64,000 nt of DNA from Chthonomonas calidirosea (GTDB lineage Bacteria; Armatimonadota; Fimbriimonadia; Fimbriimonadales; Fimbriimonadaceae), in NCBI GenBank assembly GCA_945882415.1, contig CAMCWC010000002.1:1-64000 (forward strand), read 5' to 3'. The notes under the pieces were generated by a model. It was not told where the DNA came from. It saw only the letters and a list, made by a program, of their open reading frames with translations, and ran no database searches. This document shows positions 24,273 through 25,801 of this stretch, piece after piece. How positions within the stretch are numbered: the stretch's first letter is position 1; the number at the start of each line of letters is the position of its first letter. The position numbers and the translations under genes were made by a program.

Positions 24273-24741
24273 CGCCGCGAATACTCTCCCTGGCCGCGGA
24301 AATCAATTGGCGTCGCATAGGCACCGAGGAACGCGGCTTAAGGTCAAAATCCGCGCACTTCCCGCTCTTCCCCGAGCAACGGTTAGATCGTTCCAAAGCT
24401 ACCCATCACATCGAGAAATCCACAATTTGCATAACAAGTAAGCAAATCATACGCATTATTCACACTTTCGGATCAAAATCGCGTACAATCAAGAGGAATT
24501 ATCCGTCTTTGGCACTACAGGGCAATGGTTTTTAAGCCAATACCTGAATCAGTAATCGATCAAGCCGCTCGAGCCAAGGAAGGAAGAAAGGCGTGCGTGC
24601 AAAACGCGATCATGGCAAGGTCGCGTTGGCAACCGGTCCGGTTCAGCCTAAAAGGCAGCACACCTCTCGTAAATCGTCCCTTGGCAGCGACCTGTCGACT
24701 GCATAGGGCTCAGTTATCCCTTGATAACTTGGGAGAATTCG
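24256..24741. other. 486-bp non-coding region between the SARP-type regulator and the antitoxin gene
   Basis: The longest gap in the window. No convincing gene is seen. It contains the direct repeat at its left edge, an AT-rich stretch (24405-24500) unlike its surroundings with inverted repeat ATTTGC (24425-24430) / GCAAAT (24442-24447), a -10-like TACAAT (24484-24489) followed by AGAGGAAT, and the palindrome at 24712-24729. A small RNA or lost gene is possible but unproven. Confidence 0.5.
24712..24729. promoter_or_regulatory. Palindrome AGTTATC-N4-GATAACT upstream of the antitoxin
   Basis: Perfect 7-bp inverted repeats with a 4-base spacer, ending 12 bases before the antitoxin ATG and overlapping a -10-like TAACTT. 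Ribbon-helix-helix antitoxins autoregulate by binding such palindromes over their promoter. Confidence 0.55.
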
Positions 24742-25005
24742 ATGTCGAGAACAACAACAGAAAAAATCGAGCGAGTAACGGTTTCTCTGCCGGGCCGAAT
24801 GGTCGGCCTCGTCGAGCACCGCATGCAGTCTGATGGCTATGCAAGCGTTTCCGAATGGATTCGGCATGCCATCCGTGAACAGTTAAAGCGGGAAATGTCG
24901 CCGAGCGATCCTTCGCCCGACGATGACCCCCGAGTTGAGAAAAGCCTCTCGCAGTTCCGAGCTGGAGATGTCCGGGAGATTGACCTCAGCAAATTTCGAA
25001 CGTGA
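24742..25005 (+). CDS. Ribbon-helix-helix (ParD/CopG-like) antitoxin candidate
   Basis: An 87-residue protein. Residues 11-49 fit a ribbon-helix-helix domain: strand RVTVSL (11-16), helix A (18-30), the G-Y turn and helix B ASVSEWIRHAIREQL (34-48). The tail (55-87) is acidic then mixed, as in antitoxins that wrap a toxin. GGGAG lies 6 bases before the ATG. The palindrome just upstream is a likely self-operator. The next gene, 32 bases on, is the toxin candidate. The antitoxin role is inferred from fold, size and context. Confidence 0.7.
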   Translation: MSRTTTEKIERVTVSLPGRMVGLVEHRMQSDGYASVSEWIRHAIREQLKREMSPSDPSPDDDPRVEKSLSQFRAGDVREIDLSKFRT

Positions 25006-25037
25006 GGGAATGGTTTCGTTAGTGAGAGGGATGACGA

Positions 25038-25331
25038 ATGAAGTGGACTGGAGAGGCAGAGGCGCGATTCGAAGAATTCCATGCTGAAGTTGCGGCGACT
25101 GGTGATGGGGCGGACTTTGTGTTCTCCTTTGAAGCCACCGTACATAGAAGCATAAACGAACCGGCTACTGCCCATTCCGCCACCGTTTTCGGCGGTGAAG
25201 CGTGTTGGCAAGTCGAGTTCTACAAAAGGTCCATCGTTGGCGGCATTCAAACGTTTTGCTTCGACTACGCGATTATTCCGGCCGGGGAGCGCCAAATCGT
25301 TTGGTTCACCCGCAACACCAGTTGGTTCTAG
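25038..25331 (+). CDS. Toxin candidate, distant RelE/ParE-like
   Basis: A 97-residue protein directly downstream of the ribbon-helix-helix gene. It starts MKWTGEAEARFEEFHAEVA, like the first strand and helix of ParE/RelE toxins (xWtxeAExdLeeI), has a strand-rich middle (CWQVEFYKRSIVGG and TFCFDYAII) and ends VWFTRNTSWF. The middle is not obviously homologous to known toxins, so this may be a divergent or new family. A GAGAGGGA sequence precedes the ATG. Its stop overlaps the end of the convergent tspO by 4 bases. Confidence 0.5.
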   Translation: MKWTGEAEARFEEFHAEVAATGDGADFVFSFEATVHRSINEPATAHSATVFGGEACWQVEFYKRSIVGGIQTFCFDYAIIPAGERQIVWFTRNTSWF

Positions 25332-25801
25332 GCGTTCAGGCGCCAAATCACGAAGTTGAGCACGCTCGCGAATGTCACCCAGGCCAGGTATGGCACGAGA
25401 ATCCAAGCCGCCCGGGCTTGGATTCGGGCGAAGAGCAGGATCGTGACGAGGATCGCCACCCACATCATTATTATTTCCGCGAACGCCGGGCCAAGCTGCC
25501 GACCGGCGAAGAATAGCCAGGACCAAGCGACGTTCAGCACCAGTTGAAGACCAAAAGCCACGTACGCTGCGGTCTTCTTTTCGCTGTCCGACTGCACGAT
25601 CCAGAACAGCGAGAGCCCCATCAAAAAGAAAAGAACCGTCCAAACCGGGGCAAAAACCAGATTCGGCGGATTCCAGCTCGGCTTGTTGATCTGCTCATAC
25701 CAAGGCCCAAGTCCGCGAATCGAACCCTGCGCGCCGACGAAGCTTGCCGAAAACACGAGGGTCTGGCACAAAAGGAAACGGATGACCGGAGTGCCAAACA
25801 T
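25328..25801 (-). CDS. TspO/MBR family tryptophan-rich sensory protein
   Basis: A 157-residue five-helix membrane protein of the TspO (translocator protein) family, which binds porphyrins and related ligands. The signature is clear: GPWYEQINKPSWNPPNLVFAPVWTVLFFLMG (about residues 32-62) and NVAWSWLFFAGRQLGPAFAEI. Length matches bacterial TspO. Its ATG is divergent from the secreted protein gene at 25904. Bacterial roles include stress-linked tetrapyrrole handling; the ligand here is unknown. Confidence 0.92.
   Translation of the reverse strand: MFGTPVIRFLLCQTLVFSASFVGAQGSIRGLGPWYEQINKPSWNPPNLVFAPVWTVLFFLMGLSLFWIVQSDSEKKTAAYVAFGLQLVLNVAWSWLFFAGRQLGPAFAEIIMMWVAILVTILLFARIQARAAWILVPYLAWVTFASVLNFVIWRLNA

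Follow-up and report, generated by a model that had tools for sequence, protein, structure and literature searches.

Do two small genes in the 64,000-nucleotide stretch of Chthonomonas calidirosea DNA analysed here (the window), the first encoding a ribbon-helix-helix (RHH) protein and the second a protein of no recognised family, form a toxin–antitoxin pair, and if so, of what kind? The original prediction proposed a new pair with a palindromic operator of its own, a second product that starts like ParE/RelE toxins and an accessory-like setting beside a large regulator.

Layout of the locus

The two genes, of 87 and 97 residues, lie exactly where they had been placed, 32 bases apart, and the large regulator beside them is present (Table 1). 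Each gene is preceded by a purine-rich, Shine-Dalgarno-like stretch. Downstream, the stop codon of the 97-residue gene overlaps that of a convergent TspO-like gene (25328-25331); upstream, a non-coding gap of 486 bases adjoins the pair, and beyond it stands the regulator, whose matches to DNA-binding, AAA/NB-ARC and TPR models are mostly under cut-off. Proteins like this regulator are numerous in the genus, one genome having as many as 24 stretches that match.

Table 1. Features of the locus, in window coordinates
Feature	Positions	Strand	Remarks
Large regulator, 900 aa	21553-24255		neighbour of the pair; partial Trans_reg_C, AAA/NB-ARC and TPR matches
Inserted segment, 990 bases	24338-25327	.	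from comparison with congener G009; G+C 0.517 against 0.571 for the window
Non-coding stretch ahead of the candidate operator	24338-24711	.	no match in an Rfam search
Second inverted repeat, ATTTGC-N11-GCAAAT	24425-24447	.	within the non-coding stretch of the row above
Perfect palindrome, AGTTATC-CCTT-GATAACT (7+4+7)	24712-24729	.	candidate operator, inside the insert
GGGAG, ribosome-binding-site-like	24731-24735	+	6 bases before the RHH start; from the sequence
RHH gene, 87 aa	24742-25005	+	presumed antitoxin and autorepressor
GAGAGG, Shine-Dalgarno-like	25024-25029		ahead of the 97-residue gene
Second gene, 97 aa, ATG start	25038-25331	+	unclassified protein, presumed toxin
TspO-like gene	25328-25801	-	convergent with the 97-residue gene

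The RHH domain passes its Pfam cut-off (PF01402, RHH_1; 21.3 bits against 20.5), and a single-sequence model, of poor quality, contains the two expected helices at residues 18-31 and 36-52; the C-terminal tail that follows (about residues 53-87) is presumed to be the candidate toxin-binding part. Two narrower assignments were rejected, namely ParD (TIGR02606; 17.7 bits against a curated cut-off of 46.2) and NikR (30.9 bits against 119), the protein ending at 87 residues and covering only the N-terminal part of the 148-position NikR model. Both genes score low in per-codon coding statistics (0.010 and 0.057, against 0.157 with a standard deviation of 0.094 for trained genes), and the reality of the 97-residue gene thus rests on its homologues rather than on its composition.

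Both genes occur together in five genomes

A phylum-wide search with the RHH protein retrieved four full-length homologues (49, 38, 38 and 33% identical), all within the family but outside the genus of the window, at loci L099 (genome G065), L100 (G044), L101 (G054) and L102 (G064). This RHH family is well separated, its five members matching at E 3e-39 or better and the next RHH protein at 5.7e-7. Every homologue is followed by a same-strand gene of 86-103 residues, after 41, 43, 1 and 10 bases at L099, L100, L101 and L102, respectively. The partner gene at L101 ends after a run of nine C (reverse complement, about 2010-2040) and is maybe shortened by a frameshift, either real or from sequencing.

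Across 291 genomes of the phylum, profiles of the RHH half and of the partner half retrieve the same five genomes (5 of the 85 in the family), the next partner-profile match standing at E 0.016, and neither half occurs without the other. These five matches are self-matches of family members, and the informative part is that there is no sixth genome and no solitary half. A search for related loci with the RHH alignment or with the L099 partner returned none. Co-occurrence elsewhere was one of the points on which the original prediction had staked itself, and the two genes stand together in all five genomes found.

The pair lies in an insertion

The proposed accessory-like setting is borne out by an insertion with an empty site in a congener for two of the copies. 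First, the close congener G009 flanks the site with the same neighbours, the 900-residue regulator, 97% identical as a protein, and the TspO-like gene, at 95%, and carries 34 unrelated bases in place of the 990 of the window; the left flank is about 92% identical in DNA up to position 24337, and similarity begins again at 25328. The lower G+C of the insert and the atypical codon use of its genes, together with the fact that no other genome of the genus carries the pair, favour gain of the pair at this locus rather than loss in G009. Second, the G044 copy is flanked by lpxC and a convergent gene; congener G043 has both neighbours and no pair, which is an independent empty site at a different locus. 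The neighbours differ among the five loci, and the two empty sites mark the limits of the mobile unit. At the ends of the window insert, no target-site duplication and no terminal inverted repeat of at least 8 bases were found. Both in the window and in G044, where it directly abuts, the partner stop touches or overlaps that of the convergent neighbour, as though gene ends were where the unit inserts. The second inverted repeat of the insert sits about 300 bases before the RHH gene.

A very divergent partner family

As judged from alignments, the four partners and the window protein are one very divergent family. The partner at L099 is related to those at L100, L101 and L102 (0-1 of 500 shuffles as good), and the L100 and L102 partners are 39% identical. 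In global alignments of the window protein, 1 of 500 shuffles did as well as L099 and 0 of 500 as well as L102, and directly against L100 or L101 the window protein does no better than chance; it joins the family by chaining, a link that its position beside the RHH gene makes firm. The same family was found again by automatic family assembly. Identities to the window protein are 13-24% for the partners and 33-49% for the RHH proteins, and the window protein has Trp-Gln where its aligned homologues have Tyr/Phe-Arg.

Searches of Pfam, NCBIfam, PADLOC and PHROGs gave no match for the 97-residue protein, PDB sequences offered none that was credible, and no member of the family rises above any Pfam or NCBIfam cut-off. 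Direct searches of the genus, the family, the phylum, 84,980 species genomes, viral contigs, plasmids and phages found no homologue; weak tblastn hits at L003, L005, L027 and L028 were rejected because they read real genes in another frame or in antisense, or cover short stretches only, and the remaining weak hits score no better. A partner that diverges much faster than its RHH protein gives a small collection in which to study how a toxin can change while the antitoxin stays, and there is a practical point in that a toxin missed by all profile libraries can be reached via its antitoxin.

Affinity to RelE/ParE toxins

The likeness to the start of ParE/RelE toxins holds as a weak profile signal of the whole family and fails for the single protein, whose comparisons with RelE/ParE (HMMER, hhalign) are not significant and resemble those of shuffled sequences. 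Aligned by hhalign with a RelE/ParE profile of 31 toxins (28 from the phylum and 3 plasmid-borne), the five-member partner profile scores 23.7 at a probability of 30%, a score that none of 200 column permutations reaches (maximum 16.6); without the L101 member, the probability is 52%. A deeper RelE/ParE profile, drawn from the same phylum and from haloarchaea, gives 26.3 and 51%, with none of 100 permutations as high, and the haloarchaeal toxins by themselves have no match to the partner profile. hhalign probabilities of 30-51% are no proof of RelE/ParE membership. Among families assembled automatically from the same loci and compared with the 31-toxin profile, true ParE families score at least 73 and the partner family 22, and the highest score of some 26 unrelated families is 16.9. 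Furthermore, the alignment of the partner and RelE/ParE profiles is in register from the N terminus of both, and in library searches the L102 partner comes closest to ParE_toxin (E 0.17) and RelE_StbE (E 0.18), with either hit far under its cut-off. Taken together, these comparisons point to a likely origin of the partner family in RelE/ParE.

A type II module whose toxin has a separate fold, and resembles RelE/ParE only in a shared helix-then-sheet layout, would accommodate the negative single-protein test and the failure of the family to pass any cut-off. It would also suit the single-sequence model of the 97-residue protein, of low confidence (pLDDT 58.6), which has one helix and a four-stranded sheet; Foldseek and VIA-align listed no RelE/ParE chain and no convincing solved-structure match for this model, which is too poor to judge by whether the protein has the BECR fold of the RelE/ParE superfamily. 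We nevertheless consider a separate fold unlikely, since the family profile, correctly aligned from the N terminus, outscores every permutation and every unrelated family, and the kin of the RHH protein pair mainly with RelE/ParE toxins. It is similarly doubtful that the family constitutes a separate toxin class, with fold and target outside RelE/ParE and other known type II toxins; if true, such a class would be evolving unusually fast against a conserved RHH antitoxin.

Kin of the RHH protein

The RHH genes of the phylum that come next in similarity include about 13 distinct ones of antitoxin size (under about 135 codons), which precede seven ParE genes (one truncated, L127), two PIN-like, two MazF-like and two unrecognised ones, ParE being called by profile except for L127, and PIN and MazF by eye from the sequence; the larger RHH proteins look like ordinary regulators. 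Plasmid relatives of the window RHH protein that were opened (weak matches, E 0.04-0.09) are antitoxins followed by RelE/ParE toxins. On haloarchaeal plasmids, the best homologues of the L101 RHH protein are 30-33% identical over 91%, with an annotated RelE/ParE toxin next in five cases and, in two more, a member of that toxin family whose end is frameshifted; no toxin follows a longer archaeal RHH protein or a Chloroflexota one. Two Halobacterium salinarum "hypothetical proteins" (L155:1739-2008 and L159:1239-1508) correspond to the neighbouring RelE/ParE toxins except for a frameshift that alters the C terminus, and are apparently inactivated toxin copies. In the relative G069 (L109:1453-2107, with the same pair in L125), a 102-residue RHH gene is overlapped by a 121-residue gene that had no match in a comparison made with RelE/ParE only, a possible second unclassified toxin–antitoxin pair.

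The main alternative to a toxin–antitoxin module is a harmless mobile regulatory pair, that is, a small operon that joins an ordinary RHH transcription factor with a non-toxic co-regulator or effector. The window RHH protein matches NikR, CdrS and other regulators about as well as it matches ParD, the codon statistics are near background, and the toxicity of the partner is deduced rather than observed; however, the unit is sporadic within the family, sits at unrelated loci with empty sites, has the two-gene size of a toxin–antitoxin module and has kin that adjoin toxins, and a regulatory pair is thus quite unlikely. That the 97-residue frame is a chance or decaying one beside a lone RHH gene is highly improbable, for although its coding statistics are weak and it is an orphan in direct searches, homologous genes occupy the same place in all four homologous loci, and its start, spacing and stop are intact.

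The upstream palindrome

Of the proposed palindromic operator, the palindrome itself is perfect and exactly where it was said to be, ending 12 bases ahead of the RHH ATG; its role as an operator is not borne out by chance frequency or by conservation of sequence. A count of perfect inverted repeats (arms of 7 or more, spacer of up to 8) gave 45 for the window and 35-56 for simulated sequence, which makes them neither rarer nor commoner than chance, and simulations place such a repeat within 60 bases upstream of a start about 1.6% of the time. The sequence is not conserved in the four homologous loci. L100 has a different perfect N4 palindrome, TGGCGG-TTCG-CCGCCA, at -32 to -17, which is nearly the same distance, L102 has a perfect palindrome at -67, and L099 has no upstream palindrome with arms of at least 6. 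Palindromes that are not shared would agree with RHH operators that change along with their protein, yet they are not evidence of an operator.

A type II module and its relation to known systems

In established type II systems with an RHH antitoxin, dimers of the antitoxin shut down transcription of the operon that encodes it, and its tail keeps the toxin bound; the antitoxin is labile, and once it has gone the toxin can act. The locus shares with such systems two small, co-oriented, adjacent genes, together at all five loci, an RHH_1 domain and a patchy distribution. In our view, the pair is most probably a horizontally acquired, mobile type II toxin–antitoxin module with a RelE/ParE-type toxin, a reading to which we give a probability of about two in three; that it is a toxin–antitoxin module at all, whatever the type of toxin, appears highly probable. 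The proposal of a new pair is well supported by co-occurrence, by the empty sites and by RHH kin that are mostly antitoxin-like.

By analogy with type II systems, the RHH protein would dimerise and bind DNA near its own promoter, and its C-terminal tail would cap the product of the second gene, which is probably a small toxin of a lineage-restricted, fast-diverging family, most likely from the RelE/ParE superfamily. Loss of the labile RHH protein would then free the partner to act. It is from this analogy that we infer the toxicity, neutralisation, complex formation, autorepression and fold of the pair. According to a recent survey, 13 Pfam families share the RelE/ParE fold, and members that are RNases are not simply distinguishable by fold from those that inhibit gyrase (PMC11980606). 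Whether the putative toxin would act on ribosome-bound mRNA, gyrase or another target cannot be told from its sequence.

A literature search for such systems in Armatimonadetes gave nothing specific, and we compare the pair here with three known ones. First of all, ParD/ParE (RHH with PF05016) likewise consists of two genes, with the RHH gene first and a small partner second; RHH kin of the window family precede ParE, and the partner profile is weakly similar to RelE/ParE. The window partner family, on the other hand, lies under the family cut-off and is far more divergent than its antitoxin, and the two window genes are separated by 32 bases, whereas the related ParE pairs in the phylum mostly overlap or nearly do so. 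Second, RelB/RelE has an RHH antitoxin and a partner of similar size, and the best NCBIfam hit of the L102 partner is RelE_StbE; it differs in that the window partner is under cut-off and its catalytic residues are unrecognisable, with Arg replaced by Gln in the window protein. Third, in the CopG/RelE-ParE pairs of haloarchaeal plasmids (for example NZ_CP064790.1), the RHH protein is 31-33% identical to the L101 homologue over 91% and an annotated RelE/ParE toxin is next; the genes, however, overlap by 8 bases, and the toxin has no match to the partner profile. The arrangement is of a known kind, and the toxin family is one unlisted in the libraries searched. The locus adds an unlisted toxin-like family to the type II toxin–antitoxin modules, a modest addition to well-known systems.
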